Assembly: GCA_009691705.1 (NCBI GenBank)
Contig: SIAR01000007.1
Coordinates: 1 to 64,000 of the forward strand
Direction: 5' to 3'
Source of the DNA: Phycisphaerales bacterium
GTDB taxonomy: Bacteria; Planctomycetota; Phycisphaerae; Phycisphaerales; SM1A02
Length of the DNA: 64,000 bases
Shown: positions 30,466 to 46,915 of the stretch, in pieces
Position numbering within the stretch: position 1 is the stretch's first letter
Layout: every line of letters starts with the position of its first letter
Made by a program: the position numbers and the translations under genes
The notes under the pieces: model-generated
The model's database searches: none
What the model was told of the DNA's origin: nothing
What the model saw: only the letters and a program-made list of their open reading frames with translations

Positions 30466-31302
30466 CTACCCGCGAGTGACGCGCGATGCGCGCTTGTCAT
30501 CGGTGCGCTTTGTCTCGAGTGATCGACCATTAAGGCCGTCGGTCACAGCGCGCAGGCTCTCGGCGATGCGGCGCACAACCTTTGAATTGGGATGGTCTTT
30601 GAGCAGCGACGCAATCTTTGCGACCCCTTCGCCACCGCGGATACGAAAGATGCGCTTGTAAACCTCTTTGGCGGCTTCGATCTCCGACTCGCCGAGTCCT
30701 AGGCGACTCATGCCGACATTGTTGTAACCACGAATTGCCGCGGGACTTCCCTCAACCAACATGAACGGAGGGACATCCTTCGAAACGCGTGCCATGCCAC
30801 CAACGAATCCGCAGAAGCCCACGCGCACGAAGTGGTGCAATCCTGCGGCTCCGCCGATGTTTGCATAGTCATCAATCTGCGTGTGACCCGCGAGCATCGC
30901 ATTGTTCGCAAAGATGCAGTGGTTTCCGATGATCGCATCGTGCGCGATGTGCACGTTGCCCATGATCAGGTTGTGCGATCCAATGCGCGTGATGCCGCCG
31001 CCATTGCCGGTGCCGCGGTGAATCGTGGCGTGTTCGCGAATGGTGTTGAAATCACCGATCTCGAGCCACGTTGGTTCGCCATGAAACTTCAAATCTTGGG
31101 GATCGCCACCAATCACGGTGAAGGGATGGATTTCATTTCCACGTCCCATGCGGGTGAGTGCGGTGATGTGGCACTGCGAGCGCAGGATGCAATCTTCACC
31201 GACGATGACGCGGGGGCCGATAGTGCAATACGCCCCGATCGTCGCCGACGGTGCGATCTCAGCGGTGGAGTCGATGATGGCTGTGGGGTGAATCTTGCTC
31301 AT
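30466..31302 (-). CDS. lpxA: UDP-N-acetylglucosamine O-acyltransferase
   Basis: First step of lipid A synthesis: adds a 3-hydroxyacyl chain to UDP-GlcNAc. The 278-residue protein is built of hexapeptide repeats (left-handed beta-helix). IAHDAIIGNHC contains the catalytic His, GGDPQDLKF and RVGFCGFVGGM follow family consensus, and a helical C-terminus (SEIEAAKEVYKRIFR) ends it. It begins 6 nt after the lpxC/fabZ gene. Confidence 0.95.
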   Translation of the reverse strand: MSKIHPTAIIDSTAEIAPSATIGAYCTIGPRVIVGEDCILRSQCHITALTRMGRGNEIHPFTVIGGDPQDLKFHGEPTWLEIGDFNTIREHATIHRGTGNGGGITRIGSHNLIMGNVHIAHDAIIGNHCIFANNAMLAGHTQIDDYANIGGAAGLHHFVRVGFCGFVGGMARVSKDVPPFMLVEGSPAAIRGYNNVGMSRLGLGESEIEAAKEVYKRIFRIRGGEGVAKIASLLKDHPNSKVVRRIAESLRAVTDGLNGRSLETKRTDDKRASRVTRG

Positions 31303-31308
31303 GAATTG

Positions 31309-32712
31309 TCACTCAAACTCTGCGTCAACCATCATGAAACGAATCTGCGCCTCGGCAGCTAGTTTTCCTTGCACCCACGCGCGGCACTGCACCGCAGCGC
31401 TTCTGGCACTCGCCCGCAGTGTTTCGACCTCGATGACCAACTGATCTCCGGGAGTCACTGCCTTGCGCAACTTGACTTTGTCAAGCGAGAGTAACACGGC
31501 GACCTTTCCCGTGTGTTCGAGCGTTTGCGAGAGCAAAAGTCCGCCTAGTTGCGCCATCGATTCGACAATGAGCACCCCCGGCATAATCGGAGTGCCGGGA
31601 TAGTGTCCGGGAAAGAACGGCTCGTTGATCGTGACGTTCTTGATGCCAACGGCGCGGCGCGATCCTTCAATCTCGATGACTCGGTCGATGAGAAGCATTG
31701 GATAGCGGTGCGGCATGATGCGCGCAATCGCGCGGGCATCTAGCACCCGACCTGTGCCCACAACGGAAGCGCGCGCCTTCGTCGCAACCTGCTCAAAGAG
31801 TCGGCGCGCCATCCGCCGATTGAGTTCGTGTCCCGACCGCTGGGCAACGATCTTTCCTTGCAGGGCAACTCCTGCCAGCGCGAGATCACCGATCACGTCG
31901 AGCACCTTGTGGCGCACGCACTCATCGGTGAATCGGAATGCATTTTCGATTGGCCCTTCGTCGCCGATCACGAGCGCGTCTCTGGGAGTGAGATGACGAC
32001 ACATGCCAGCGGCCCAGAGCGCCTCGGCTTCAGCACGCAAGCTGAAAGTTCGCGCCGGGGCAATATCTGCTGCGAAGTCGTCGCGCGCAAAGTCGAAGTG
32101 GCGATTCTGCCGGCCAATGCACGCGGAAACGCTCGAGTAATCGAGTTCGTACGTCACGCGAAACCCGGGCTCGTCCGAAGGAAGAGCAGCGATCAACGCT
32201 CCATCTTCTTCGATCACGATCGCTTCGCTGATGCGGTGGATGAGCCGTGGCGCATCTTGTGCAACGACTCCAGCGGCACGGAGTGGTTCGAGGAATGGGA
32301 GAGCCGATCCATCACCCGCGGGCACTTCAGGACCGCGCAGTCGAACGCGCACATTGTCGATACCGAGTCCAACAAGCGCGCTCAGCAAATGCTCGACCGT
32401 GTCGATAGTCGCATCACCAACGCGCAGAGTCGTGCGCCGGGGGCGCGAGACGGCATTTGTGATCAGAGCAGGAATCGCGACAGGTTCGCCGAGGTCGATG
32501 CGTTCAAAAATGATGCCGGTGCCGACGGGGGCGGGCAAGAACTCTGCTTCGGCGTCGACGCCGCTCAGCAATCCCTTACCTCGGACAATCGTTGGCGAGG
32601 CGATCGTGTGCTGTTTCTTCTCTTGCGGCAACCCGATGGCGGTTGCTGTTGGATGTGAGAGGGGGCGCAAGTTTCCCAAAGCATCTGTGGATTGCAACGG
32701 CGAAGTGCTCAT
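31309..32712 (-). CDS. lpxC/fabZ: LpxC-FabZ fusion: UDP-3-O-acyl-GlcNAc deacetylase / 3-hydroxyacyl-ACP dehydratase
   Basis: Bifunctional protein of 467 residues. Residues about 33-315 are LpxC, the committed zinc deacetylase of lipid A synthesis; zinc ligands are in DTVEHLLSAL and RHKVLDVIGDL. Residues about 325-467 are FabZ, with the hot-dog fold dehydratase site NEPFFPGHYPGTPIMPGVLIVE holding His and Glu. Such fusions are known in Bacteroidota and other lineages. It overlaps lpxD by 4 nt (ATGA). Coupling lipid A and fatty-acid flow is the usual explanation. Confidence 0.95.
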   Translation of the reverse strand: MSTSPLQSTDALGNLRPLSHPTATAIGLPQEKKQHTIASPTIVRGKGLLSGVDAEAEFLPAPVGTGIIFERIDLGEPVAIPALITNAVSRPRRTTLRVGDATIDTVEHLLSALVGLGIDNVRVRLRGPEVPAGDGSALPFLEPLRAAGVVAQDAPRLIHRISEAIVIEEDGALIAALPSDEPGFRVTYELDYSSVSACIGRQNRHFDFARDDFAADIAPARTFSLRAEAEALWAAGMCRHLTPRDALVIGDEGPIENAFRFTDECVRHKVLDVIGDLALAGVALQGKIVAQRSGHELNRRMARRLFEQVATKARASVVGTGRVLDARAIARIMPHRYPMLLIDRVIEIEGSRRAVGIKNVTINEPFFPGHYPGTPIMPGVLIVESMAQLGGLLLSQTLEHTGKVAVLLSLDKVKLRKAVTPGDQLVIEVETLRASARSAAVQCRAWVQGKLAAEAQIRFMMVDAEFE

Positions 32713-33815
32713 GACTCAATCGCCCTCTCGGCCGGAAGGTCGGCCGAACTGTCGGCCTTGGCAGTGGTTGCTTGCGCCTTCGCGCTCTTGTTCGCTGCGA
32801 CGATGCGCATGAGGTCGCGCGCGATGGGCGACAACTTCTGCAGGGCGAGCACGTGCCGCAATTCGGTCTTGATTTCGCGGGCGGGCATGCCACCCCATGT
32901 CTCGCCGGCGGGTACGTCGTTGATGAGGGCAGTGCGCGCTGCAAGTTGCGCACCCGATCCAACATTTCGGTGGTCGGCGATTCCCGTGGCTGCGCCGATG
33001 CGCACCCAGTCACCGATCGTGCACGAACCAGCCACCCCAGAAAGCCCCGCCATCACAGTGTTTCGACCGAATTGCACGTTGTGCCCGACCTGACAGTGAT
33101 TGTCAATCTTGGTACCCGCTCCGATGCGGGTCGATCCAAATGTGCCGCGGTCGATGCAGGTGCAACTTCCGATCTCCACTCCATCTTCGAGCACAACATT
33201 GCCCAAATGTGGAATGCGCAGCAGGTTCTTGCCATCCGCGGCGGGGCGGTATCCAAATCCTTCGGTGCCGATGACGGCACCAGCGTGCAGGATGACACGA
33301 CTTCCAATCACGCAATTCTCGCGAATCACCGCGTTGGCGTGGATGGTCGTGTCGTCGCCGATCGAGACTCCACCATAGATGCGGGCGCCAGCGTGAATCA
33401 CGACATTGCGACCGATGCGACAATTCGCACCGATCCAGACGAATGGACCCACGAAGATCTCTTCTGGCGCGGCAAGTTGTGATTCGACGACTGCGCTTGC
33501 ATGCACTCCAGGCGAAGGGCGTTGCGCCTCTGGGGCGAAGATCTCAAGCAACTTGATCATCGCAATGTCTGCTTTGTCAACGCGAATGAGGGCGCGGGTC
33601 GTCGCATCGTGTCCAGGAACTTGGATGCCATGCGAAACGAGTGCAACGGATGCGCGCGAATCTTTCCAGAGTTGTGCGTATCTGGTGTCTGAAATGAATG
33701 TCGCATCGGATGCGCTCGCGCCGCGCAGATCGTTCACCCCGCAGATCGCGATGGTGCCGGGTCCTTCGAGTGTTCCGCCTGTCCTGACGGCGATCTCTTG
33801 AGCCGTGAGTTGCAT
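32709..33815 (-). CDS. lpxD: UDP-3-O-acylglucosamine N-acyltransferase
   Basis: Third lipid A enzyme; it adds the N-linked hydroxyacyl chain. From the ATG at 33815 the protein has 368 residues starting MQLTAQEIAVRTGG, the family's usual opening; an upstream in-frame ATG at 33893 lies inside ompH. The N-domain is followed by hexapeptide repeats and GHNVQFGRNTVMAGLSGVAG holding the catalytic His. The start is 4 nt after the ompH stop. Confidence 0.94.
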   Translation of the reverse strand: MQLTAQEIAVRTGGTLEGPGTIAICGVNDLRGASASDATFISDTRYAQLWKDSRASVALVSHGIQVPGHDATTRALIRVDKADIAMIKLLEIFAPEAQRPSPGVHASAVVESQLAAPEEIFVGPFVWIGANCRIGRNVVIHAGARIYGGVSIGDDTTIHANAVIRENCVIGSRVILHAGAVIGTEGFGYRPAADGKNLLRIPHLGNVVLEDGVEIGSCTCIDRGTFGSTRIGAGTKIDNHCQVGHNVQFGRNTVMAGLSGVAGSCTIGDWVRIGAATGIADHRNVGSGAQLAARTALINDVPAGETWGGMPAREIKTELRHVLALQKLSPIARDLMRIVAANKSAKAQATTAKADSSADLPAERAIES

Positions 33816-33819
33816 CACT

Positions 33820-34455
33820 TCAACTCTTGCCGGGCAATGCGGGGGTGAGTGTCTGGGGCGATCCAGTCGAGGGATTGGCCGCGCGGAAATCACTATTCAT
33901 CCGCTCGATGAGGAGATCGGTGATGTCGAGGGCTGGGTTCGCATAGAGCATGCGCCGTCCAGTGATTTGCTGCACCGTGCCTTCGAGATTTGTTGGATTG
34001 ATCGTCGGAACTGTGTCATCAATGAAAACGAAGTCAACTTTCTGTTCAGTCGCGATCTTGGCGCACGATGCGCGGATCGCCATGTACGCCTCTCGCACCG
34101 TATTTGCCTGCTCTGATTCGACCTTAACTTGCGTGAATTTATGCAAGGCGGTCAGGTCGCTTGCCCGAAGAATCACCTTTTTCAGAGCCTCATTGTGGGC
34201 AGTCGACCCAGTCTGAAAGCTCTCAAGGTCATCTTTCATCGCGCGAACTTCGTCTTCCAACTTAGTGATGCGTTTTTTTAATTCACCGCGCAGCACAACG
34301 ACCTTGCCATTCGAAGCCTTCTGTTGATCGAGCGAACTATAGACCTTCTCGAGATCGACCGACGCAACGACTGCGGGAGTCGTCGGACCCCCAGCGGCCC
34401 ACATGAGAACTGCAACCACGAGCGACACCGGGATGATGAGGTATTTATTTTGCAT
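33820..34455 (-). CDS. OmpH/Skp-family periplasmic chaperone, copy 1
   Basis: A 211-residue exported protein: signal anchor (residues 5-22), then VASVDLEKVYSSLDQQKASN, the start of the Skp/OmpH strand-helix core, a long charged coiled coil (40-120), and a return strand VDFVFIDDTVPT. Skp-like proteins escort unfolded outer-membrane proteins toward BamA, encoded two genes upstream. Family identity is clear from pattern though sequence identity is low. It sits 15 nt after copy 2. Confidence 0.85.
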   Translation of the reverse strand: MQNKYLIIPVSLVVAVLMWAAGGPTTPAVVASVDLEKVYSSLDQQKASNGKVVVLRGELKKRITKLEDEVRAMKDDLESFQTGSTAHNEALKKVILRASDLTALHKFTQVKVESEQANTVREAYMAIRASCAKIATEQKVDFVFIDDTVPTINPTNLEGTVQQITGRRMLYANPALDITDLLIERMNSDFRAANPSTGSPQTLTPALPGKS

Positions 34456-34470
34456 AGGACTCTCGAGAAT

Positions 34471-35136
34471 TTACGGAGTTGCTGGCGACGCAGAAGCGGC
34501 GGCTGTTGGGGCGTTGGGAGTTGCGCGCGCGTTGTTAATGCGCAATATGAGTTTCTCAGTTAGGTCATCTGCCTTCGCGGCGTAGAGAACACGCCGCTGC
34601 GAAAACTGCTCGAAGACCTGCTGGGTGAGTGACATCTGACTTTGACGTTCGAGCTGAAACTTGGCGATCCCGTCGTAGACGAATACGTATTGATATCCCT
34701 CGTGCAGCGCGAGTTTTTCTGCTTCGGATGCGATAGACCGATAGAGACCCTCCAAGCGCAATGCCTGTTCGCGGTCGGCCTCTTGCTGTTTCATGTTCGT
34801 CCATTCACTCAGTTGATACTTCTCGAGAGCAAGTCCATCGCGCAGGGTTTGGCGCTCTGTTAGATCGGTCATTGCATCAGACTCGCGGGCCCGCCCTTCG
34901 AGTTGCTCGTTGCGGCTCTTGAGTTCTTGTGCGAAGCGGTTTGCCATCCCCGTGAGTTCGACATCCATATCAGCGCGCTGCTGAATCTTGTCGAGGATGC
35001 GTAGAATGTCAACATTCGCAACGGCGGATGGCTGGGCGGTGAGCCGACCAACGGTGTAGGCCGCACTCCCTGCGACACAAGTTGCGGCGATCAGAATGGC
35101 AACGAAAAGTGAGGTCTTGTGTATACGCTTCTCCAT
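34471..35136 (-). CDS. OmpH/Skp-family periplasmic chaperone, copy 2
   Basis: A 221-residue paralogue: signal anchor MEKRIHKTSLFVAILIAATC, ANVDILRILDKIQQRADMDVE, coiled coil rich in Glu/Arg (60-140), then GYQYVFVYDGIAKF. Having two different ompH genes adjacent is common in planctomycetes. The frame is open upstream to 35241; the ATG at 35136 is chosen for its signal anchor and a TACACT hexamer 9 nt away. The C-terminus is Ala/Pro-rich. Confidence 0.82.
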   Translation of the reverse strand: MEKRIHKTSLFVAILIAATCVAGSAAYTVGRLTAQPSAVANVDILRILDKIQQRADMDVELTGMANRFAQELKSRNEQLEGRARESDAMTDLTERQTLRDGLALEKYQLSEWTNMKQQEADREQALRLEGLYRSIASEAEKLALHEGYQYVFVYDGIAKFQLERQSQMSLTQQVFEQFSQRRVLYAAKADDLTEKLILRINNARATPNAPTAAASASPATP

Positions 35137-35145
35137 GGGAAATGG

Positions 35146-35151
35146 AGTGTA
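35146..35151 (-). promoter_or_regulatory. Candidate internal -10 TACACT before ompH copy 2
   Basis: It ends 9 nt before the ATG at 35136, between bamA and ompH, so the ompH-lpx genes may have a promoter besides the one of bamA. Confidence 0.4.
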
Positions 35152-35188
35152 ACCACAGACGGCTGTGATCCCCCCATCGAAGTGTGCG

Positions 35189-37672
35189 CTAGAAGGGTAA
35201 CTCCGCAGTGAAACTGAAGACTTCAGTCTGATCGGTCTCATACTTCACAACGGGCACGGCAAAGTCAAACGCGAGCGGCGCAGGCCCGAGTTGTGGGATG
35301 TACAGGCGCAATCCGCAACCGATGGAGACGCGGTAGGGGGAGAGCGTCAGCGTATCTGTGACCGTTCCAGAATCTGTGAAGATCACGCCCGCGATGAACT
35401 TGTCGAAGATTGGCACTTCATACTGCGCACCAGCGAAGAAGCGAAAGTTGCCACCGATGGGATCGCCATTGGGGAGTCCATTCGATGTCTGCGTGGGAAC
35501 GCCTTCGGTGGTGAGGGGTGGATCGACGCCAATCTCCGCCGGGCTCAGTGGACTCACCGACCGGAATTGGAAGCCACGGAGCGATCGGCCACCGAGGTAG
35601 AACTTTTCTGAGACTGGAGCGGTGTCCTGAAAAATATATCCCGCGCTCGTGCTCAGTTTCAGAATGCTCTTGCGACCAAAAAAGTCTTCGGCGAGCGGCA
35701 GAAATGTTGTGTAGCTAGCTGCAGCAAGTGGAAACTGATACTCCCCGCCCAAACCACCAAAGTATGAGAGGTCTGCTTCGAACCGCGAGCCCTGGCTGGG
35801 GCGCATCTGATTATCAAAGTTCGTTCTAGAAAACGAAACTCCAACCGAGTTTATGAAGGCTGGTCCGCGATCTTCGTAGACCTCCATCGGCGTGTTGGAT
35901 ACAAAGTCGGTGAGTGTGACCGACTGCAAACTCATCCGCGCCGATCCACTCCACATATCGCCGAAGGTTCGCGAAATAGCGAAGGTCGTCGCGATGCGTT
36001 CTTCGACAAAGCTGTCGTAGACGCGGTTGCGGTAGAACATGCTCGAACCAAACCCGTAGTCGCTATCGAGAATGCTCGGTTCACTGAAACTGATCGCATA
36101 GTTACTGACGTCGACTCCAGGTGAGATCGCAATCGAAAAACTCTGCCCAGCGCCACGAAACGCCCGACCGCTCGAGAACTCGTCGAACGTTTGGGGCGGG
36201 TCGCCGATGTCAAAGTTCCGCTGGGCAAGCGAGATTTGCCCGAAGAATCCCGAGTCGCTTCCCATTCCAACGCCGAAGTTCAAACTGCCAGTATTGCGCT
36301 CCTTGACCTCGACTAGCACATCGCGCACGGTTGGATTCTCTTCGTCGGCCACTTGAGGAGTGACCATTGCGGCATTGAAGAGTTGGGATCCCTCGAGTCT
36401 CTCCTTGGAAATCTCGAGCTCATGACCATCGAGGGGACGGCCTGGCTGAATGCGAATGCGCCGTCTCACGACGTTGTCTTTGGTGATGTAATTGCCCTGA
36501 ATGCGCACGAGTCCAGCGATTACCGGGGTCGCCTCCCGCACCATGACGATCAAGTCGACTTCAGGATCTTCACCGATTCGAATCCAGGTCGGATCGGCGC
36601 GGGCGTCGATGTACCCCATCGTCTGATAGGCCTCCACGACCGCCTTGGTGGATGCATCCACTTTGTCTTGCGTGTAGTAATCCCCAGGGCGAATCACCAT
36701 CAAGCCGAGCACCTGCTCAGAACGCAAAACGCGCGGTTTGTCGCGGACCATGCCATCGGCCGACTCAATGGTCACTGATCGCATTCGGTACTGGCGCCCC
36801 TCGCTGACCGCGAAGACCACCTTGGCTTCTTTGCCGTTCTCTGAGACTTCGACCCGCTTGTCGACGCGCACGTCGATGAATCCGCGCTCTTTATAAAACT
36901 TGTCGAGCGCAGCGGCATCGTCGATGATAATCTCTTCGTCGAGATTTCCTGTCGAGAAAAGGAAGACCCAAGGCTTGGTCTTGATTTGAGCGCCGAGCTG
37001 ATTTGTGTCGAATCGATCGTTTCCAGAAAAAACAATCTCACGGATGCGCACGCGCGGTCCTTCTACGATTCGAAAAATCAGGATGCCGGTATCGAGCAGC
37101 CGGGTCTCGTCGACCTCAACTTCGACCATGTAGTTGCCCTTTGATCGGTAGAGGTTCTTGATCTTCTCGATGGCGCGTTCGAGCAAGAAGTCATCGCGAG
37201 GTCCGCCGGGATACAAGCCAATAATCGCCCGCAGTTCCTGATCAGACGCGACCTTGTTGCCAACAACTTGAATGTCGCGAACGATGGGCTGCTCGATCAA
37301 GATGTAGCGAATGCGCACCGTGCCGTCGGGCAGCAACTCTGCATCCGCGGTGACGGCGTCGAAATGTCCAAGGCGGTACAGGGTTGCGACGTCATCCCGC
37401 ACCGCTTGTGCTTCGAAAGGCTGCCCCGTGGCAATGCGCAAGTTGTTGCGCACTTCTTGCGCGGTGATTCGGCTGAGCCCTTCGATCAAGACCTCAGAGA
37501 TCGGCCGATCGGTCAAGCTCTCGTCGTCGAGATTCGTGGTAAACCGCGCAGTTTCAACCGCAATCCCAGGCGCCGTGCAAATGGCGCACACAACTGCGCA
37601 GGCAAGCCACTGCGCGATCGCTAACAGCCGAGGCGAGGACTGCAAGGTTGATCGACTCTCAGACGGCGACAT
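35189..37672 (-). CDS. bamA: Outer membrane protein assembly factor BamA
   Basis: Beta-barrel insertase of the outer membrane. From the ATG at 37672 it has 827 residues: signal peptide (about 10-35), repeated POTRA domains to roughly residue 440 (EVLIEGLSRITAQEVRNNLRI is the first), then the 16-strand Omp85 barrel. LRGFQFRSVSPL with the conserved RGF is lid-loop sequence, and the C-terminus is FSFTAELPF, ending in Phe as the barrel signal requires. The frame extends 104 codons further upstream but overlaps gcvT, so that start is rejected. It heads the ompH-lpx cluster. Confidence 0.94.
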   Translation of the reverse strand: MSPSESRSTLQSSPRLLAIAQWLACAVVCAICTAPGIAVETARFTTNLDDESLTDRPISEVLIEGLSRITAQEVRNNLRIATGQPFEAQAVRDDVATLYRLGHFDAVTADAELLPDGTVRIRYILIEQPIVRDIQVVGNKVASDQELRAIIGLYPGGPRDDFLLERAIEKIKNLYRSKGNYMVEVEVDETRLLDTGILIFRIVEGPRVRIREIVFSGNDRFDTNQLGAQIKTKPWVFLFSTGNLDEEIIIDDAAALDKFYKERGFIDVRVDKRVEVSENGKEAKVVFAVSEGRQYRMRSVTIESADGMVRDKPRVLRSEQVLGLMVIRPGDYYTQDKVDASTKAVVEAYQTMGYIDARADPTWIRIGEDPEVDLIVMVREATPVIAGLVRIQGNYITKDNVVRRRIRIQPGRPLDGHELEISKERLEGSQLFNAAMVTPQVADEENPTVRDVLVEVKERNTGSLNFGVGMGSDSGFFGQISLAQRNFDIGDPPQTFDEFSSGRAFRGAGQSFSIAISPGVDVSNYAISFSEPSILDSDYGFGSSMFYRNRVYDSFVEERIATTFAISRTFGDMWSGSARMSLQSVTLTDFVSNTPMEVYEDRGPAFINSVGVSFSRTNFDNQMRPSQGSRFEADLSYFGGLGGEYQFPLAAASYTTFLPLAEDFFGRKSILKLSTSAGYIFQDTAPVSEKFYLGGRSLRGFQFRSVSPLSPAEIGVDPPLTTEGVPTQTSNGLPNGDPIGGNFRFFAGAQYEVPIFDKFIAGVIFTDSGTVTDTLTLSPYRVSIGCGLRLYIPQLGPAPLAFDFAVPVVKYETDQTEVFSFTAELPF

Positions 37673-37681
37673 GAGGTGCGA

Positions 37682-37687
37682 AGGGTA
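37682..37687 (-). promoter_or_regulatory. Candidate -10 TACCCT of bamA
   Basis: It ends 9 nt before the bamA ATG, which fits the shortened start at 37672. Confidence 0.45.
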
Positions 37688-37732
37688 TCCAACAGCGTTC
37701 TGCTTCGCAGTGGCGCGGACACACGCATCCGA

Positions 37733-37738
37733 TACGCT
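37733..37738 (+). promoter_or_regulatory. Candidate -10 TACGCT of gcvT
   Basis: Six nt before the ATG at 37745, predicting a transcript that begins with AUG. No glycine riboswitch is present in the 72-nt divergent gap. Confidence 0.55.
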
Positions 37739-37744
37739 TGGTTC

Positions 37745-38893
37745 ATGGCAAATTTGATGCACACTCCTTTCTATGACGTTCACGTCGAGCACGGCGGCAA
37801 GATGGTTGACTTCGCGGGATGGGAGATGCCATTGCTCTACTCGTCGATCATCGACGAACATCGCCACTGCCGAACTTCGGCAGGTTTCTTCGATGTTTCG
37901 CACATGGGACGGCTGCGGTTTTCTGGGCGCCATGCCCGCAAGTTTCTTGACATGGTCTGCACTCGACAAATCTTTGGAATGCAAGTTGGTCAGTGTCGCT
38001 ACGGCATCATCTGCAACGAGCGCGGGGGATGCCTCGACGATGTCATCGTGTATTGCTTTGACGAATCAGAGTATTTGATGGTCTGCAACGCATCCAATCG
38101 CGCCAAGCTTCTTGCGCACTTCGCAGCGGTCAAGGGTGATCTAGTTTTCAAGCTGGATGATCAGACTGAGTCGACTGCGATGGTGGCGTTGCAGGGTCCA
38201 AAGGCGATGGAGATTGTTGGAGCACTCTCGAAAGAGATTCCGCAACTCAAGCGTTACCGCTTTGCGCAGAAGAATTTGCTGGTCGTGAAGTTGATTGTCA
38301 GCCGCACGGGATACACCGGAGAAGATGGCGTTGAGGTCATCTTGGGGGCATCGATGGCACGCGCCGCGATGGGAATGTTTCTCAAAGACGTGAAGAGCGG
38401 TACGAGCGCGATCAAGCCCGTTGGACTCGGCGCGCGCGATACGCTTCGAATGGAAGCTGGAATGCCGCTCTACGGGCATGAACTCGATGAAGAGACCGAT
38501 CCAATCACTGCCGGACTCGCATTCGCAGTCAAAGTCGACAAGGGCGCTGACGATGAACGAATCGGTCGATTCATCGGACAGTCGGCTCTAGAGGCGATCG
38601 CCAAGAATGGACCGGCAAGAAAACTAGTTGGACTCGGCCTCGAAGGACGCCGCAGCGCCCGACAGGGGATGGAGATTCGATCTGGCTCGAGAGTCGTAGG
38701 ACGCGTCACAAGCGGATGCCTCTCGCCAACTCTTGACCGTCCTATCGCGATGGGAATACTCGACGCGGCATTCGCCGCAGTGGGAACGGAAGTCGAAATC
38801 GACCTGCGCGGCACTGCTGTCAAGTCGATTGTTGAACCACTGCCGTTTTACAGCATGACCTCACAAAAAGTTGTGGCAGCGGCAGCGAGCTAG
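37745..38893 (+). CDS. gcvT: Glycine cleavage system T protein (aminomethyltransferase)
   Basis: Transfers the methylene group from aminomethyl-lipoate to tetrahydrofolate. The 382-residue protein has FYDVHVEHGGKMVDFAGWEMP, GFFDVSHMGR, the catalytic-Asp region GGCLDDVIVY, RTGYTGEDGVEV and GLGARDTLRMEAGMPLYGHEL, all conserved. The ATG at 37745 matches the usual N-terminus, whereas an open frame from 37676 does not. gcvH and gcvP are not adjacent. Confidence 0.94.
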   Translation: MANLMHTPFYDVHVEHGGKMVDFAGWEMPLLYSSIIDEHRHCRTSAGFFDVSHMGRLRFSGRHARKFLDMVCTRQIFGMQVGQCRYGIICNERGGCLDDVIVYCFDESEYLMVCNASNRAKLLAHFAAVKGDLVFKLDDQTESTAMVALQGPKAMEIVGALSKEIPQLKRYRFAQKNLLVVKLIVSRTGYTGEDGVEVILGASMARAAMGMFLKDVKSGTSAIKPVGLGARDTLRMEAGMPLYGHELDEETDPITAGLAFAVKVDKGADDERIGRFIGQSALEAIAKNGPARKLVGLGLEGRRSARQGMEIRSGSRVVGRVTSGCLSPTLDRPIAMGILDAAFAAVGTEVEIDLRGTAVKSIVEPLPFYSMTSQKVVAAAAS

Positions 38894-38900
38894 TTGCGAT

Positions 38901-39929
38901 TCAGTTCTGACTGAGCGGGGGCACGCTGGGCGGGTTGCGCTTGTGGTCTTTGGCGTTCTTGGCAACCTTAGAAATCTTGGCGTCTTTGTCTTTGGGTGGG
39001 TGCGCGAGCAATTCGCTCAACGATGGCTTAACCGTTTGTGAGCGATGTGGGGTGCTGCTGCCGTCGTCGTCTCCTTGGCGAAAAAGCAGCGAGAGCGACT
39101 GATTGCTTCCGAGTTGTCGACTGAGTCGGTCGAGAGTGTCGACTTCGATCTGTCGCACGCGTTCGCGCGTCAGTCCAACCTTGACGCCGACTTCATTCAG
39201 AGTCAATGGTTCAGTGCCGTCGAGACCAAATCGCAGTCGCAGCACCTCAGCCTCGCGTGCATCAATGGTGTCGAGCAATCTCATGATGACGCGCAGCAAC
39301 TCGTTTTCTTCGATGACAACCGTCGGATTCTTCGACCGCGTGTCTTCAAAGACATCTGCAAAGTCAGCAACATCACCGTCGGAGTTCTGTGTAGTGACCT
39401 GGTTTGGGGCGTTGTACGCCCGCAGCGCGCGGCGGATCACTTGCAGTTTTCCAAGCGGAACCTGCATCTCCCGCGCGAGCTCGATCATCGACGGCGGATG
39501 GCCAGTCTTCTCTTCAAGCATCTTCGAGGCGGTCTTGCACCGGCTGATCAATTCGATCATGTACGCGGGGATGTGGATCGGTTGGGTTGCGTTGAGAAGG
39601 GTGCGCTTGATGGACTGCTTGATCCACCACGATGCATAGGTTGAGAAGCGAGCGCCCTGGGCAGGATCAAATCCTTCGACGGCGCGGATCAGTCCAACAT
39701 TTCCCTCTTCGATGAGATCGGGAAGCGAAATGCCCCGGTTCATGTAGCCCTTCGAGATCGCGATGACGAGCCGCAGATTGGCGGTGATCATTCGATCCTT
39801 CGCCGATGGGCAGTTGTCGTTGATGATGGACCAACCGAGCGTCTTCTCCTCAGCAGGAGTCAACAGCGCGTGTTGGCTGATCTCTCGTACGTACAGTTGG
39901 ATTTCAGATTGGACTACAGACTTCGCCAC
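38901..39929 (-). CDS. RNA polymerase sigma-70 family factor (RpoD/RpoS-like)
   Basis: Promoter-recognition subunit, 342 residues. It lacks region 1.1 but has region 1.2 (VQSEIQLYVREISQHALLTPAEE), region 2 (DLIEEGNVGLIRAVEGFDPAQGARFSTYASWWIKQSIKR contains 2.3-2.4), region 3 and region 4.2 (GVKVGLTRERVRQIEVDTLDRL). A 55-residue Lys/Pro-rich tail (about 287-342) follows region 4. The size suggests a group 2 sigma. It starts with GTG after GAGAGG (5 nt). It ends 8 nt from the convergent gcvT. Confidence 0.92.
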   Translation of the reverse strand: MAKSVVQSEIQLYVREISQHALLTPAEEKTLGWSIINDNCPSAKDRMITANLRLVIAISKGYMNRGISLPDLIEEGNVGLIRAVEGFDPAQGARFSTYASWWIKQSIKRTLLNATQPIHIPAYMIELISRCKTASKMLEEKTGHPPSMIELAREMQVPLGKLQVIRRALRAYNAPNQVTTQNSDGDVADFADVFEDTRSKNPTVVIEENELLRVIMRLLDTIDAREAEVLRLRFGLDGTEPLTLNEVGVKVGLTRERVRQIEVDTLDRLSRQLGSNQSLSLLFRQGDDDGSSTPHRSQTVKPSLSELLAHPPKDKDAKISKVAKNAKDHKRNPPSVPPLSQN

Positions 39930-40014: not shown

Positions 40015-40758
40015 ATGAGCGAGAGCACTCCCGATTGGCAGGACGACCTCACCCCGATCCTGGGTCGGTGGGAGTTTTCCAAAAGCGCTCCGCAACTGCG
40101 ATTTCTCGTCGGGATCGGCGATGTTGTGCGAATTCAGATTCGACTCGAAGCGGGTCTCTTGCAATTCGAGGTGGACGGACGACCCGACGGATCGCGCCCG
40201 CAGGGGTGCGAGTCATGGTTTGACTATTGGTCGTGTCGCCCCGAATGTATTTCTTGGGAGGGTGTCGGCGCACTCTTGGCTGAGGTCGCGCTCTACCACC
40301 AACGCGCCGTCGCGTTCATGCTGCTCGATGATTTCGCCTCATGTACTCGTGACTGTGAACGCAATATCGCAGCGATTGCATTCGTTCACCAACGCGCCGC
40401 CCCTGGGGCCGACACCGCAGCCTGTCAGACGCAACAAGTCGCAGCGGTGCTCCTGCGAACGCGCGCCGCGGCATCTGTCTGCGTTCGACTACGGGATACG
40501 CATGGGGCGCTCGCTGCAATCGACCGCGGACTCGCCGCCCTGCACCGACCGGTGGGGCAACCTGGGCAATTGGTTGGGAGCCCGGAATCAGATTCTCCAG
40601 AGTCTGCACTCTTGCGATCGATGCGCGATGCGCTCGTCCCAAAGCTTCCTTCGAGTCAACGCGTCGACCTCGAGACGCGACTCAGGAGTGCACTGCGACT
40701 CGAGAACTATGAACTCGCCGTCATATTGCGAAACGAATTGCGGCAGATTGGCGACTAG
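40015..40758 (+). CDS. Hypothetical protein with C-terminal UvrB/UvrC-type motif
   Basis: A 247-residue cytoplasmic protein. Residues 1-90 form a beta-rich region with CESWFDYWSCRPEC (four nearby Cys/His-like positions). Residues 90-180 are helical and TPR-like. Residues 213-245 (DLETRLRSALRLENYELAVILRNELRQI) match the UvrB/UvrC interaction motif, a helical hairpin also found in McsA and Clp ATPases. The function is unknown; a partner-binding role is inferred. It ends 6 nt from the convergent operon. Confidence 0.7.
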   Translation: MSESTPDWQDDLTPILGRWEFSKSAPQLRFLVGIGDVVRIQIRLEAGLLQFEVDGRPDGSRPQGCESWFDYWSCRPECISWEGVGALLAEVALYHQRAVAFMLLDDFASCTRDCERNIAAIAFVHQRAAPGADTAACQTQQVAAVLLRTRAAASVCVRLRDTHGALAAIDRGLAALHRPVGQPGQLVGSPESDSPESALLRSMRDALVPKLPSSQRVDLETRLRSALRLENYELAVILRNELRQIGD

Positions 40759-40764
40759 GAGAGC

Positions 40765-43341
40765 CTAGATAGGCTTCGTTGCTTCGTGTGCGGCGGGCCG
40801 CGGTGCCGCAGGAGCAAACTTCTCGAGTGCACTCTTGGATGGCTCACCGCCAAGATCAGGATCCAGTGCCCGCAGCCGCGCAAGGCGTGCTTGCAATGGT
40901 TCGCCACCCCGTCCCGATGCATCAGCCATCTGTATCTGAATGACTTGCGCCGTCCACCACGGCGCACTTCCTCGAGCAACCTTGGTCGCCAAGAGTCTTG
41001 CTGCGTTCATCGCCTCATTGCGAAGAGCGTCGCGCCGGGCGGTATCGGCGGTGCCGTCCAGTGCCCCTGCTGCCTGTGAAAGTGCTTGCGCCAAGCGAAG
41101 CAAGTCGCCTCGGTCTGCCGTTGGATGTGCTGCGAGGGCGTGCGCCCGTGCAGTGGCGGCATCCCAGGCATGGGCTATGAGCGCTGCGTCAGCGGCGACG
41201 ACGCAAATGGCGCGTGCGTCGGCATCGGTGGGTGACAGATCAGCAGGTGGATGGAGCTGCTCCCAGACCTCGGCAGCTTCGAGTGCCCGCAGCGCCACTG
41301 CGCGAGCACTCTCGCTTGCGCCGCCCTGCAGCGCCTGCGCATTGGCCACCAGTCGTTGCAAGAACTGCACGAGTGTTGGGCAGGCCAGCATCGTCTCGGA
41401 GGTCAGCAGACTCGGTGGGATCGCTTCGAGCTCGCGTTGAAATGCCGCGCGCGCGCCATCTTCTTGGAGTGCGGCGCGATCGAGGCGCAGTTGCAAGATG
41501 CGCTGCGCGTCTGTAGTTGTCCATCCATTCCACTGCGCGAGCGAAGGAGGACCCGCAGCGCGCGGCGGATCGTTCGGTGCGAGCAGATCGGCGGCAATGG
41601 TCGCGAGTGCGATCGCACCATCGATGCGCGGGCCGGCGTCGAAGCCCGCTGCTTGGGCGCTCTCATCGAGGTCGCGCAATCGCACAGCGTTCGCCCACAT
41701 TTCATCAGCAGCATCACGCGATGCCGCGCCGCTGGCGCCGGTGAGTCGGTCGGTGCTGCGCATGATCTCCAGGGCGAGCAACTGCGCCGCCGAGCGTGAG
41801 CGGGTGGGGAGTTCAGCGAAGTTGGTGAGGGCGAGGCGAAGCGTTGCCTCGAATGACGCAGTACGCGCATCGGGTCGCGCGCGGTCGAGAGCCACTTCGA
41901 TGTCGAGAGCTGTTTCGATCGCAGTCGCGGCGCTGGGCTCTTGCGCCGCGCACTGCGCAAAGAGTCTGTACATATCGGCGGCGCGTCCCCATTCTCCATG
42001 CGCGCTGTACGCATCAGCGAGCACCACAAGGGCAGCGGCTTGCACTTGCGAATCAGCAGATTGAGCAGCAAACACGCGCAGTGCCTCCTCTGCCGCCGCC
42101 GCCGACGCATCCGCCCCGAGGGCATCACCACTGCGCGCGATCACTGCGAGCGGCGGGAGGGTGCCAACCACCGCGACTCCCCGAAGTGCTCCAGCGATAC
42201 GGCCGAGCACTGCCCGCCGCACTGCGGCCCGTTCCGATGGCATCGCGTTGCGCAGTGTGACGATCCACGCTTCAAGGGTGGTCGGGTCGGCAGGGGACTT
42301 TCCCATGGTGACGCAGGTGCGCACGAAAGCGTCAGCCGCGAGCAACCTCAGTCCGGTGGGCATGTTCGCACTCATGTTGAGTGCGATGAGTTGTTGAACT
42401 GCCTCGTTGCCATGCCGTTCGTTGACGAGTGCGTCGGCAACAAGAATGCGCGAGAGCGTCGCAAGAACTGGATCGTTGCTCAGCAAGATTCGGGCTGCGC
42501 CAAAACGCGCATCGTCGAGTCGCAGGGCAACCGCCGCCGCCGCAACCTCTGCAAGGTCAGCCTCAGGCCGAAGTCGCGCTGGAATGCGCGGCCGAACTTC
42601 AACGATCGCCGCGTGCACAGGAGCCGCCGCCGCGGGACGCCCCCGCTCAACAACCATATCGCGCCGACTGCGATCAATCGCCATCGCGAACGCCTCGACT
42701 GCAGCCGCCAAGAATGGACGGCGCCCCCGCCCGTCGTGCGCAAGTCGCTGGGCGAGGGCAGAGTCTGGCGCAAGATCAACCGCTGCGCCTGTTGCCTGTG
42801 CGCCGGTGACGCGGGTGAGAAGTGCTTTCACTCGCGCCAAAGAAGCCTGCCCACGCGCCGGCACATCGACGAGTGGCGATCCTGCAATTGCTTCGGCGCC
42901 GCCGTCAAGCCCAAGAAACCCAAGCACGAGTTCATCTTCGGCACCATCTACCAGCCAAAGCGCAACGCGGGCATCGCGGGGATGGGCTGCGATGAGTGCT
43001 TCGCGCGCGTTGCGAAGTTGTTCGAGTGCCGCGAGTCGTGCGCTGTACGTGGTGGATGGCAAACGCAGTGTCATCCTCCACCGCGCGACAGCACGCAGTT
43101 GCGCGGTCGCTGCATCAGTCGCCGCAGGGGCGGGTTCAGATCGGTCGAGGTCGTCGAGCGCGCGTTCGAGTCCGAAGTCGCTGATGCCGCGCAGAAAGTC
43201 TTCTTCACGCATCATCGCCAGCGTCGGGTCGCTCGCAGATTGCGCGGTCGACACGGCGTGAACGCTCGCACCGGTGATTGCCATGGTGAGCGCGCTTGCG
43301 GCGGCAAGCGCCAAAGCCCAGATGGTTCGCACTGCGATCAC
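40765..43341 (-). CDS. 858-residue exported helical protein, end of the ExbB/ExbD/VWA operon
   Basis: It starts at a GTG (MIAVRTIWALALAAASA) that overlaps the upstream ExbD stop by 4 nt (GTGA), giving 858 residues. A signal peptide or anchor covers residues 4-28. The rest is almost all helix, rich in Ala, Arg and Asp, in repeated helix pairs (QAAALVVLADAYSAHGEWGRAADMYRLFAQ is TPR-like near residue 460), without enzyme motifs. It is probably a periplasmic scaffold that works with the ExbB/ExbD motor. A 477-residue frame on the opposite strand is a shadow. Confidence 0.75.
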   Translation of the reverse strand: MIAVRTIWALALAAASALTMAITGASVHAVSTAQSASDPTLAMMREEDFLRGISDFGLERALDDLDRSEPAPAATDAATAQLRAVARWRMTLRLPSTTYSARLAALEQLRNAREALIAAHPRDARVALWLVDGAEDELVLGFLGLDGGAEAIAGSPLVDVPARGQASLARVKALLTRVTGAQATGAAVDLAPDSALAQRLAHDGRGRRPFLAAAVEAFAMAIDRSRRDMVVERGRPAAAAPVHAAIVEVRPRIPARLRPEADLAEVAAAAVALRLDDARFGAARILLSNDPVLATLSRILVADALVNERHGNEAVQQLIALNMSANMPTGLRLLAADAFVRTCVTMGKSPADPTTLEAWIVTLRNAMPSERAAVRRAVLGRIAGALRGVAVVGTLPPLAVIARSGDALGADASAAAAEEALRVFAAQSADSQVQAAALVVLADAYSAHGEWGRAADMYRLFAQCAAQEPSAATAIETALDIEVALDRARPDARTASFEATLRLALTNFAELPTRSRSAAQLLALEIMRSTDRLTGASGAASRDAADEMWANAVRLRDLDESAQAAGFDAGPRIDGAIALATIAADLLAPNDPPRAAGPPSLAQWNGWTTTDAQRILQLRLDRAALQEDGARAAFQRELEAIPPSLLTSETMLACPTLVQFLQRLVANAQALQGGASESARAVALRALEAAEVWEQLHPPADLSPTDADARAICVVAADAALIAHAWDAATARAHALAAHPTADRGDLLRLAQALSQAAGALDGTADTARRDALRNEAMNAARLLATKVARGSAPWWTAQVIQIQMADASGRGGEPLQARLARLRALDPDLGGEPSKSALEKFAPAAPRPAAHEATKPI

Positions 43342-43808
43342 GCGCCAGTCTCCGCGAATCCGATGTTTGCGTAGCCGGCGCGAACCGCCGCGTTGAAGGC
43401 ATCGACGGCATCCTGCCACTGGCAGTCGGGGGCGGGCACGACCAACACGGGGTGCGAGCGTTCGAAGAGTCCCTCGCCATCGTGGCGCTGCAGTTGTTCA
43501 AGAAGTTTCGCGAGCTCATCGAACGAAGCTGCGGTGCGCACGATTCCATCGGCACTCAGTTCAAGCGCACAATGATCGCCCGCGCGAACCCCGACTCGCA
43601 GTTGCAGTGGAGATTCTTGTAGAGCCAGTGGATCGGCCGTCACTGCCCGCGCGGGCAGGTCGAGTTGGTAGACCTCTTCGCGCCGTTCGAATCGCACGGT
43701 GCAGACGAAGAAGACGAGAAGCAAGAAGACGACGTCAATCATCGGCGTCATCGCGAGCGACACCCTTGAGCCCTGAGCCGCGCGGCGGTTGTTCGCAGGC
43801 GTTCTCAT
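43338..43808 (-). CDS. ExbD/TolR-family transport protein, copy 2
   Basis: Single-pass stator-type subunit, 156 residues. The N-terminal part has LAMTPMIDVVFLLLVFFV with the essential Asp (about residue 25) in the membrane segment. The periplasmic domain (60-156) ends with NAAVRAGYANIGFAE, as in ExbD/TolR. With ExbB it uses the proton-motive force to move a partner. The ATG overlaps the stop of copy 1 by 4 nt. Confidence 0.88.
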   Translation of the reverse strand: MRTPANNRRAAQGSRVSLAMTPMIDVVFLLLVFFVCTVRFERREEVYQLDLPARAVTADPLALQESPLQLRVGVRAGDHCALELSADGIVRTAASFDELAKLLEQLQRHDGEGLFERSHPVLVVPAPDCQWQDAVDAFNAAVRAGYANIGFAETGA

Positions 43809-44272
43809 GGTCGCGATGGGGCGCTCTCGAGCGCGCAGACGCGCACAGTGACTGGTGAGGCGCCGGCACTCGCCGCGGCCCGCGCGATCGCCCGCAAGAC
43901 TGGCTGTACTTCTTCGTAGCGCAATGTCCGATCGGCTCGAACGTCGACTGGCAGAGTCCAGTCGCGGGCGATGCGCTGCGCGAGTGCTCCGGCAAGGGCG
44001 CTCTCGCCAGCGGCGTCGGCCGCAAAGCGCTGCCCACCCAACGAGAGCAGTGTGCGCCCACCATCGCTGATGACGTTCACCGCGATGCGCTGACCAAGTT
44101 TGATTGGACTCAGCGCGGCATGGTGTGGCTCTGGCAACGCGACTGGTGGAAGTTGTTCGCCGCTCATGCGGGCGATGAGCACAAAGAAGACGATCAACAA
44201 GAATGCAAGATCGATTAGCGGCGTGAGATTGGCATCGATCCGAGCGTGCCCGCGCGCGTGCAAGAGGCTCAC
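43805..44272 (-). CDS. ExbD/TolR-family transport protein, copy 1
   Basis: Single-pass protein of 155 residues: NLTPLIDLAFLLIVFFVLIAR holds the membrane Asp (about residue 20), followed by a periplasmic domain with LPVDVRADRTLRYEEVQPVLRA as in ExbD. The start is a GTG overlapping the ExbB stop (GTGA); a longer frame to 44353 lies inside exbB. Two unlike ExbD proteins probably form the plug dimers with one ExbB pentamer. Confidence 0.88.
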   Translation of the reverse strand: MSLLHARGHARIDANLTPLIDLAFLLIVFFVLIARMSGEQLPPVALPEPHHAALSPIKLGQRIAVNVISDGGRTLLSLGGQRFAADAAGESALAGALAQRIARDWTLPVDVRADRTLRYEEVQPVLRAIARAAASAGASPVTVRVCALESAPSRP

Positions 44273-44982
44273 TGTTGTGCGCCTAGTGCTGCCGACGCCG
44301 CGGTTGCGCGAAGGGTGATTTCTAGTGCTTCGGCGATGAGTGCGTCGATCCAATTGCGAACCGTTGCATAGGTCAGTAGCGCTGGAATTGCGACCACGAG
44401 TCCCCAGAAAGTCGTGACGAGCGCCGTTCCGATGCCACCCGCGAGCAGGGCGGGGTCGGCCTGCCCGCCGGTCGCAGCAACAGTTTGGAATGCGACAATC
44501 ATGCCGTACACCGTTCCGAAGAGTCCGATCATTGGACTGATTTGCGCCAACACGTTGAGAATCTCAATCGTGCGAAAGCGCCGCGCCGCGCACTCTTGCG
44601 CAGCCTGTTCGGCGGCATCGACTGCGCCAGTGCGTCCCAGTGGCAGGGTGTCGAGCGCTGCGACCGCCATGCGCGAGAAGTCGCTGTTGTCGGCGGCGGC
44701 AATTGCCCGGGCTTCGCGGGGCGATCCACTGGTGCAGGCGCGTAGGAATGCCTCTGCAACGGCGTGCGGAATAATGACATGCTTGCGATGCGACAAGAGT
44801 GCGTTGGCGATGAGTCCAACACTCAGAATGCTCATTGCGATCAACAACCAAATCATGATGCTGCCGAGCCACTCGATTTGCTGCGTGCCATCAGGCATCG
44901 TGCTGTAGGAGAGAAAGAAAATCTTTGCGGCTTCAAACGTCGACGGAAGTGTGGTGGCTTGTGTCATGGTGGCTTGTGTCAT
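44269..44982 (-). CDS. MotA/TolQ/ExbB-family proton channel protein
   Basis: Inner-membrane channel subunit, 237 residues. Membrane segments lie at about 36-58, 145-168 and 185-210. The conserved ISPMIGLFGTVYGMIVAFQ and GIGTALVTTFWGLVVAIPALL blocks are the family's hallmark. Start choice: the ATGs at 44982 and 44967 are separated by a perfect 15-bp tandem duplication (repeat of MTQAT), so either could serve. It starts 4 nt after the VWA gene. Confidence 0.9.
   Translation of the reverse strand: MTQATMTQATTLPSTFEAAKIFFLSYSTMPDGTQQIEWLGSIMIWLLIAMSILSVGLIANALLSHRKHVIIPHAVAEAFLRACTSGSPREARAIAAADNSDFSRMAVAALDTLPLGRTGAVDAAEQAAQECAARRFRTIEILNVLAQISPMIGLFGTVYGMIVAFQTVAATGGQADPALLAGGIGTALVTTFWGLVVAIPALLTYATVRNWIDALIAEALEITLRATAASAALGAQQ
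44953..44982. repeat. 15-bp tandem duplication at the ExbB start
   Basis: On the minus strand ATGACACAAGCCACC occurs twice in a row and provides two possible start codons and an MTQATMTQAT N-terminus. Confidence 0.8.
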
Positions 44983-44986
44983 GGTG

Positions 44987-46252
44987 TCATGGAACCTCGG
45001 AAGGAGAAGTGCGGGAATCATTCGCCGCGCGCAGCACCGACTCGGCGCGCGCTTCAGTTGCGCGCAGACCAAAGGCGCGGGCCCCCTGCATAGCGGCGTG
45101 GGCGAGCCGTGCGGCAGTCTGTGAATCGTGATCGTTGAGCAGAGCGATCTCGGCAGCGCCCACGAGTGCCGACGGGGCTGCGCTGTGGAGCGGTTCGCCA
45201 AGTCCAATGCGCAGAAACTGCGTGCGCGCTTGCGCGGTGTTGCCCGACTTCAAGAGCGCCGCAGCCGCAGTGAGGCGAAGCATCGTGTCATCAGCGGCAG
45301 CATCGGCCGCATCGTGCGATCCACGAATATCAGCCATTCGGCCTATAAACCGATAGGAATTAGCGCCTCCGTGAATGCGCGCGATCTCTGCGAGCGCGCC
45401 CATAGGTTCTTGTTGCAGCAGGTGAATGCAGGCGATTTGTACTGAACGGCGCTTCGTCAATCCATCCACGGGATTGAGCGACTCGAATTCGGCGAGCAGT
45501 GCGTCGCGATCTGTTGGTTGATCGGCCGCGCCCAACAGTCCAGTGCTCACAATCACAATCGTGTCTGGCGTGAGCGCCAATGCGACCCGCATCGCCTTGA
45601 GCAGTGTGCTGTCGCCGCCAGGAACGATCTCGTCGAGCATCCAATTCTTGACCTCGAGAAGTCCATGTTGCCCGAGGGTTGGACCAGCGCGCCGCAGTGC
45701 TTGAGGTGGGGCAATGAATGCTTCGCCGCGCTGAAAGACGACGACTGCAAACTGTTGCTCTTCATTGAGCCGTGCGATCGCATCCACGATCTCTTGCGCT
45801 GCAGTGCGGTAAGCGCCGATCATCGATCCCGATGCATCGAGCAAGAACACGATGCGGTGGGCGACATCTCTGCGAACTCCGGCGATGGTCAAGACGCTGC
45901 GTGGCAGATCAGCGGTACGGATTGGTCGGTCGAGCCGTCCCGTCAATTCTGCGCAGTCGCTCTGTGACTTCGCCCGCATTCTGGTCGACGTGGCGCGCGC
46001 GTGAGTGATCGCCAGGGCAGTCGTTGCGCGCGGTTCAGCGGCACTGCTCGAAGCAGGCGCAGCAGGTGCAGCGGCGAGCACGGGTTCCTTTGGCGGGGAT
46101 TCAAATACGAACGTGGCGCCATCGAGCAGCGGCGAATCGTCTTGCGATTGCCATGGCTGAAGCGCGACGATGCCAACGGTGAGTAATAGAACTGCCAGAC
46201 AGCCATGGATCGCCGCAGAAACCAGCCACGGGATTATCCTCCCCATGCGCAT
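44987..46252 (-). CDS. Membrane-anchored von Willebrand factor A domain protein
   Basis: A 421-residue protein. An N-terminal anchor (residues 8-30) is followed by a Pro/Ala linker to about 85, and a VWA domain with the metal-ion adhesion site DASGS near residue 139 and further MIDAS positions in GGDST and TGLLGA. The C-terminal third is helical and TPR-like (LLKSGNTAQARTQFLRIG). It is probably exposed to the periplasm. VWA domains mediate protein-protein contacts; the partner is likely the ExbB/ExbD complex encoded next. An in-frame ATG six nt later (46246) is also possible. Confidence 0.85.
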   Translation of the reverse strand: MRMGRIIPWLVSAAIHGCLAVLLLTVGIVALQPWQSQDDSPLLDGATFVFESPPKEPVLAAAPAAPASSSAAEPRATTALAITHARATSTRMRAKSQSDCAELTGRLDRPIRTADLPRSVLTIAGVRRDVAHRIVFLLDASGSMIGAYRTAAQEIVDAIARLNEEQQFAVVVFQRGEAFIAPPQALRRAGPTLGQHGLLEVKNWMLDEIVPGGDSTLLKAMRVALALTPDTIVIVSTGLLGAADQPTDRDALLAEFESLNPVDGLTKRRSVQIACIHLLQQEPMGALAEIARIHGGANSYRFIGRMADIRGSHDAADAAADDTMLRLTAAAALLKSGNTAQARTQFLRIGLGEPLHSAAPSALVGAAEIALLNDHDSQTAARLAHAAMQGARAFGLRATEARAESVLRAANDSRTSPSEVP

Positions 46253-46255
46253 GTC

Positions 46256-46915
46256 TTACATCGGCTCCCTGTTTTTCGAATTACCCTTTGAACTCGCCTT
46301 GTCCCCCGCCCCACGCGATTGCTTGGATTGTGGTCCCAATCCGCCATCGACGCTGAGAGTTCCCCCTCCGACGAGCACCACATTCACCGCGAGCGCAAAG
46401 AGACCAATCTGCGTGAAAACGCGCTGATAGTCGCTCGGCGGCATCGTCCACCATCCAGTCACTTTGAGCTCGGGCAAGCTTGTCATCACGAAAGCGCCCA
46501 CCATCACCGCCGCCAGCGAGAGTGCGCTCAGTCGGGCGAATGCGCCAACGAGTAGCAGAAGCGATCCGCCAAGTTGGGAGAGAGCAACCAGCCATGCCGC
46601 AAGCGCTGGATAGGGAAATCTGGCATCGTTTGAGGCGAGCGCGATGGTGTATAGCGTGCGCGCGTGCAAGGGAACTGATGGTGGCGGCGGTGCGACTGTC
46701 TCGGTCGATGTGGCTGAAAAACCAGTCGATTGGATCGTCGCCCAATCCATCCCAGCAGCAGTGACGCCGATGGCGGCGAGCTGTTTTGTCTGCGCCAGAG
46801 AAAAGTCGGTCTCTGAAAATGTCTGTGCCCACCCGATGGGAAGGAAGGCTGCACACAGAATGACCCGTGCCATGAGCGGCACAAACTTCATCGCGCAGGT
46901 TTGGCTCAGCGTCAT
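46256..46915 (-). CDS. DoxX-like membrane protein, first gene of the ExbB/ExbD operon
   Basis: A 219-residue membrane protein. It has a hydrophobic N-terminus (10-30), a soluble loop (35-90), three further hydrophobic segments (about 105-190) and a Lys/Ser-rich cytoplasmic tail. The arrangement (ALSQLGGSLLLLVGAFARLSALSLAAVMVGAFV) resembles DoxX/DoxD proteins. Its function in the operon is unknown. The ATG is 3 nt... of leader space short of a TAGGAT hexamer (8-nt spacer), and the next gene begins 3 nt after its stop. Confidence 0.72.
   Translation of the reverse strand: MTLSQTCAMKFVPLMARVILCAAFLPIGWAQTFSETDFSLAQTKQLAAIGVTAAGMDWATIQSTGFSATSTETVAPPPPSVPLHARTLYTIALASNDARFPYPALAAWLVALSQLGGSLLLLVGAFARLSALSLAAVMVGAFVMTSLPELKVTGWWTMPPSDYQRVFTQIGLFALAVNVVLVGGGTLSVDGGLGPQSKQSRGAGDKASSKGNSKNREPM

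Follow-up and report, generated by a model that had tools for sequence, protein, structure and literature searches.

The 64,000 nt stretch analysed here (the window) belongs to contig C44 of a Phycisphaerales genome (G000; 1.99 Mb, 93% complete) and carries, between positions 40765 and 46915, six open reading frames (ORFs) that all lie on the reverse strand, in the order doxX-vWA-exbB-exbD-exbD followed by a gene for an 858-aa helical protein. From doxX onward the genes are spaced by +3, +4, -4, -4 and -4 nt, the overlaps being GTGA, ATGA and GTGA. This is exactly the layout given in an earlier note on the same DNA, which took the operon for a proton-driven ExbB/ExbD machine with a von Willebrand factor A (vWA) protein and a tetratricopeptide repeat (TPR)-like protein as its working parts, a reading since supported by domain matches, models and relatives.

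46256..46915, reverse strand: doxX, the first gene, DoxX-family membrane protein (219 aa; Pfam DoxX 3.5e-9)
44987..46252, reverse strand: putative vWA force transducer with transmembrane (TM) anchor, disordered linker, vWA domain and C-terminal helical TPR-like module (421 aa; AlphaFold2 (AF2), alignments, Foldseek)
44269..44982, reverse strand: exbB/tolQ-like motor subunit (237 aa; Pfam MotA_ExbB 1.2e-25)
43805..44272, reverse strand: exbD1, tolR-like, GTG start (155 aa; Pfam ExbD 7.3e-13)
43338..43808, reverse strand: exbD2, tolR-like (156 aa; Pfam ExbD 1.1e-15)
40765..43341, reverse strand: helical TPR-type superhelix protein, GTG start, likely secreted (858 aa; AF2, PDB folds, Pfam matches of orthologues)

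The DoxX, MotA_ExbB and both ExbD assignments pass the Pfam cut-offs. The VWA_2 match of the vWA protein is sub-threshold (2.1e-5, 25.6 bits vs a cut-off of 27) and the Pfam TPR match of the 858-aa protein is non-significant (0.036); the VWA and TPR assignments were later supported by structure prediction and by relatives. For the vWA protein we used two alignments with few genomes in common, A1 (27 orthologues, mean column identity 35%) and A3 (22 sequences, the window and named genomes, mean column identity 28%). Among the named relatives, metagenome-assembled genomes of Planctomycetota and Phycisphaerales predominate, at least one of them from Lake Baikal. Read together with the AF2 model and its predicted local distance difference test (pLDDT) scores, these alignments give the protein the following parts, which include a metal-ion-dependent adhesion site (MIDAS) motif.

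46145-46237, reverse strand: TM helix, residues 6-36 (AF2)
46184..46219, reverse strand: candidate motor-binding motif S12-x3-H16-x6-L23 in the TM helix (A1, A3; TM-segment control)
45887..46144, reverse strand: Ala/Pro/Ser-rich disordered linker, residues 37-122 (AF2 pLDDT mostly low)
45338..45862, reverse strand: vWA domain of Rossmann-type fold, residues 131-305 (VWA_2 2.1e-5; AF2 pLDDT mostly >90; Foldseek E 1.4e-7, matches being vWA domains)
45824-45838, reverse strand: MIDAS motif 1, D139-A-S-G-S143 (D139, S141, G142 and S143 invariant in A1 and A3)
45008..45316, reverse strand: C-terminal helical TPR-like extension, residues 313-415, seen in the window's genus only (AF2)

The N-terminal helix of the vWA orthologues follows the consensus (R)xxPWxxSxxxHxxL. 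W9 and H16 never vary in A1, where S12 is conserved in at least 90% of the sequences, and in A3 both S12 and H16 are invariant. When we looked for S-x3-H in TM segments, 62 of the 67 vWA helices had it, against no segment of ExbB (77), ExbD (about 130), DoxX (42), the helical proteins (44), the secreted TPR proteins (16) or other ORFs (19). In the SHLS motif of TonB, as in E. coli, and of TolA, the Ser, His and Leu have this same S-x3-H-x6-L spacing. The SHLS motif binds ExbB/TolQ (Williams-Jones et al. 2025, PMC12204202). The vWA protein is, judging from its sequence, the moved part of the machine, with a TonB/TolA-type motor-binding motif in its N-terminal helix. Since it carries this anchor motif, it would take TonB's place, and we rejected the reading that a TonB is missing. 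The absence of a TonB or Tol-Pal partner from the operon, as the earlier note had it, therefore holds for the gene list, but the note had overlooked that the vWA protein itself bears the motif and replaces TonB. Homology of this N-terminus to TonB structures in the PDB came down to one weak match (9ddo, E 0.086) that was lost with another alignment, and it was not used as evidence.

As for the motor, an ExbB query matched something in all 81 genomes of the genus, family and order, and the TM Asp that serves as the proton site is kept in 66/66 exbD1 and 66/66 exbD2 sequences. In a quick tree the ExbDs split by position into two clades (66 vs 66, Shimodaira-Hasegawa-like approximate likelihood ratio test 100) with no exchange between them. 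Two such clades, both retaining the Asp, point to two non-interchangeable subunits and so suggest a heterodimeric ExbD1/ExbD2 axle; AglQ and AglS may likewise form one in Myxococcus (PMC3169522).

At the other end of the operon, the 858-aa protein is modelled as entirely helical (AF2, mean pLDDT 86.5) and was found in 19/19 genomes of the genus. Its residues 2-24 form a hydrophobic N-terminal helix, likely a signal peptide of a secreted protein. The closest PDB folds are TPR superhelices of a generic kind, eukaryotic scaffolds in many cases, and give no functional clue; several orthologues match TPR models of Pfam. In many relatives, vWA and exbB are separated by a further gene, of about 350-400 aa, for a second secreted TPR-type protein. 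This gene is absent in the window's genus, where the vWA protein has its helical C-terminal module instead, while the vWA proteins of the other genera examined stop soon after the vWA fold. The module resembles the C-terminus of the relatives' separate TPR gene (hhalign E 5.8e-5), and the simplest reading of the sequences is a fusion of that gene into the vWA protein, or its reduction. However, in a control that separated the two only partly, the TPR region of another family scored as high as the relatives' TPR gene, so that the TPR similarity may be generic and the fusion rests on position plus weak similarity.

Conservation was mapped at 76 loci across the order, with vWA, exbB, two exbD and the helical protein as the core; some of the misses are due to contig ends. 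The core was collinear in 57 of the 76 loci, which argues that the operon is no chance arrangement and agrees with the conserved neighbourhood on which the earlier note had staked its proposal. By group, it was found in 42/47 loci of the window's family (f1), 1/7 of f2, 1/1 of f3, 0/6 of f4, 7/8 of f5 and 6/7 of f6. Two genomes (G035 and G023) appear to hold just a more diverged version of the cluster. In the six f4 genomes (L229, L231-L235), doxX-vWA-TPR with the motif lies at one site and exbB-exbD-exbD alone at another, near mutL in the loci read; several f2 genomes also have the vWA orthologue elsewhere. The f4 split shows that the halves co-occur without linkage, and that DoxX travels with the vWA gene rather than with the motor. 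Beyond the class, vWA-exbB-exbD-exbD arrangements, with or without another gene after vWA, were seen at L217, L218, L219 and L222, in agreement with the published breadth of vWA transducers.

DoxX, which the earlier note had placed at the head of the operon, is a real member of it. Together with vWA it precedes exbB in 37 of the 47 loci of the window's family, and it stays beside vWA where exbB-exbD-exbD sits elsewhere. No doxX was noted beside the cluster in the f5 and f6 loci mapped. A search of titles and abstracts, incomplete in coverage and thus weak as a negative, found among the papers listed none linking DoxX, ExbD and von Willebrand domains, and the accessible text on the SHLS-type vWA class does not mention a DoxX partner (PMC12204202).

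As for the classical systems, TolB_N (PF04052) was matched in 0/81 genomes, while the controls from E. coli, Caulobacter and Bacteroides were all matched, and judged by TolB the operon is accordingly no Tol-Pal variant, the case that the earlier note had named as refuting its proposal. OmpA-domain proteins occur in 81/81 genomes. In a congener (G016) that has no TolB match we noted a Pal-like protein (L154:7401-8063, reverse strand) that combines an OmpA domain with a lipobox-like signal; it lies beside mla-type genes, which encode an ABC ATPase and an MCE-type protein. TonB_C (PF03544) is above the cut-off in 38/81 genomes. Neither it nor Plug (PF07715) has a match in the window's genome; TonB_C is matched in other genomes of the genus and Plug in some. 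Within this genome, then, the vWA class is the sole Ton/Tol-type class detected by sequence search. It occurs there a second time, as a diverged operon on contig C43 (about 67004-76089; L150:5005-14090) that encodes a vWA protein with a SLPLHAILLAVLS helix, a TPR-like protein, ExbB, two ExbDs, a 959-aa TPR protein and an 866-aa protein.

Other motor-like genes of the same genome stand apart from this class. On contig C34 (L152:3248-9896, L216:7534-12285), a MotA/ExbB-like gene belongs to an unusual cluster: before it come genes for a 976-aa protein and for one that weakly matches the GYF_2 domain, and after it two genes whose products have a MotB-like TM segment at the N-terminus. Nearby are a GAP1-N2 protein and a vWA protein that lacks the His motif. 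On contig C18 (L151:6697-9359), an ExbB-like gene, beside which no ExbD gene was seen, is directly followed by a gene for an FHA-GAF-SpoIIE phosphatase-type protein.

Around the operon lie a divergent class-II DAHP synthase gene and, downstream, genes for a protein of 247 aa that weakly matches the UVR motif (40015-40758, forward strand) and an RpoS/RpoD-like sigma factor (38901-39929, reverse strand), the latter two being kept beside the operon in many family members. Some 3-10 kb away (30466-37984, reverse strand) is an outer-membrane biogenesis cluster whose genes, from their sequences, we take to encode BamA, two Skp/OmpH-like proteins, LpxD, an LpxC-FabZ fusion and LpxA.

The earlier note, which knew of no pathway described for such a gene set, was mistaken on this point. 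SHLS-type vWA force transducers, encoded with tolQ, two different tolR and a TPR gene and found in Planctomycetes among others, have been described (PMC12204202). The operon shares with this class the TM helix motif (S12, H16 and L23), a disordered linker (domain II, about 100 residues there, 37-122 here), a vWA fold replacing the TolA/TonB C-terminal domain, and synteny with genes for a TolQ-like protein, two distinct TolR-like proteins and a TPR protein. It differs in that vWA precedes exbB, whereas it is downstream of the motor genes there, and in the extra helical module of the window's genus. The TPH-vWA family, in which the vWA protein is itself the axle, with a TM Asp and no tolR/exbD (PMC12204202), is unlike the operon, which has two exbD with the TM Asp and a vWA helix with His and no Asp. 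With Ton the operon shares an ExbB/ExbD motor and a TonB-like anchor helix and linker, but it has two ExbD lineages and a vWA head, and no TonB_C or plug of a TonB-dependent transporter (TBDT) was detected in the genome. It resembles Tol-Pal in its TolQ/TolR-type motor, membrane-anchored transducer and secreted TPR protein (an analogue of CpoB by position alone), but TolB is not found in the genomes searched, the operon has no Pal, and a vWA domain stands where TolA has its C-terminal domain. Having the features of the SHLS-type class, and lacking those of TPH-vWA, Tol-Pal (TolB) and Ton (TonB_C, plug), the cluster is, on its sequences and models, a member of that known class with lineage-specific traits, namely DoxX, the gene order and the helical extension. 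Apparently new are the order-wide conservation, the persistence of both halves in f4, the constancy of DoxX with vWA, the genus-specific helical module, the absence of TolB_N from all 81 genomes and, in the window's genome, the lack of TonB_C and Plug matches alongside a second operon.

We consider it probable that the vWA arm of the operon carries force outward from the inner membrane to a partner in the periplasm or the outer membrane. An ExbB pentamer around the ExbD1/ExbD2 axle would form a proton-driven 5:2 motor in the inner membrane, and the vWA helix would dock on the side of ExbB through its conserved Ser/His/Leu face. The disordered linker would span the periplasm, and the vWA head with its added helical module may grip a partner. 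The likeliest one is the co-encoded secreted TPR superhelix, or else an outer-membrane protein that the superhelix holds. Pulling would then be passed to the outer membrane, the vWA protein acting like TonB/TolA. This picture draws on the gene set, the motif, the domain order, the retained Asp, the two ExbD lineages and the conservation, all read from sequence or models.

Several points weigh against it. The fourth SHLS position is Gly (G27) in the window's protein, and the third MIDAS position looks altered, its usual Asp not being evident by eye, which makes metal-dependent binding by the vWA domain unsure. We know of no experiment on any member of this vWA class. With the genome 93% complete, the absences from it are not absolute, and because OmpA-domain proteins, including the Pal-like lipoprotein of the congener, exist outside the operon, the picture of envelope tethering is incomplete. 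The load or partner at the outer membrane is presumed, and the docking leans on published AlphaFold3 models of relatives, our own prediction being of a single chain. Those models place the motif His at the TolA/TonB site, and the same paper states the function of vWA transducers as unknown and reports no deletion phenotypes (PMC12204202).

Our leading guess at the purpose, a tentative one, is that the operon maintains the outer membrane, as Tol does, while the cells grow and divide, since it is nearly universal in the order while TolB is absent; on weak grounds we favour it over transport and over surface movement or adhesion. In a fuller claim, a shade more doubtful, DoxX, vWA and ExbB/ExbD1/ExbD2 would together be the chief energised machine by which the order maintains its outer membrane in place of Tol-Pal, and DoxX would be a constant partner of the vWA arm that had so far gone unrecognised. 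Transport is unlikely, although it ranks first among the rivals: here the vWA head would open a non-TBDT receptor, as in Ton, or help to place outer-membrane proteins or lipids. The lack of detected TonB_C and Plug means that another energiser may be needed, and the cluster with BamA, Skp, LpxD, LpxC and LpxA lies close by in the window, that is, in one genome. However, in the relatives mapped no gene of the operon was recognisable as an outer-membrane receptor, and relatives with TonB and TBDT matches keep the operon as well, so that it is no simple Ton replacement.

Still less likely is that the same module works at the cell surface, in movement or display (gliding, adhesion), like the AglRQS-Glt system of Myxococcus. 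That system also has one TolQ-like and two TolR-like proteins (AglR, AglQ, AglS) and secreted TPR proteins (GltC/D/E) (PMC3169522), vWA domains can be adhesive, and a link to gliding is suggested in the 2025 vWA paper (PMC12204202). Its output, however, is GltG, with FHA and TonB_C domains, where the operon has its vWA protein, and no GltG-type protein was detected in the window's genome, which has no TonB_C match and in which the FHA protein encoded next to another ExbB carries SpoIIE instead. A nearly universal, mostly collinear core operon also suits housekeeping better than motility. We consider it improbable that the vWA protein acts as a regulator or in the manner of a chaperone, its His motif being just a feature of helix packing, and is no force arm: vWA domains do often act in assembly, but the motif matches TonB/TolA in spacing, is peculiar to the vWA protein and persists in alignments whose columns average about 30% identity. 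A Zorya or other defence system was rejected, the ZorA matches being weak (0.005) and confined to the shared motor core, with no other Zorya protein matched among the six genes.

Ton and Tol are the textbook routes by which inner-membrane energy reaches the outer membrane. In this lineage a third, uncharacterised class of transducer is nearly universal, and in the window's genome it is the sole such class detected, so that the role of vWA transducers becomes directly testable here. DoxX, a widespread family with unclear roles, gains a concrete partner.

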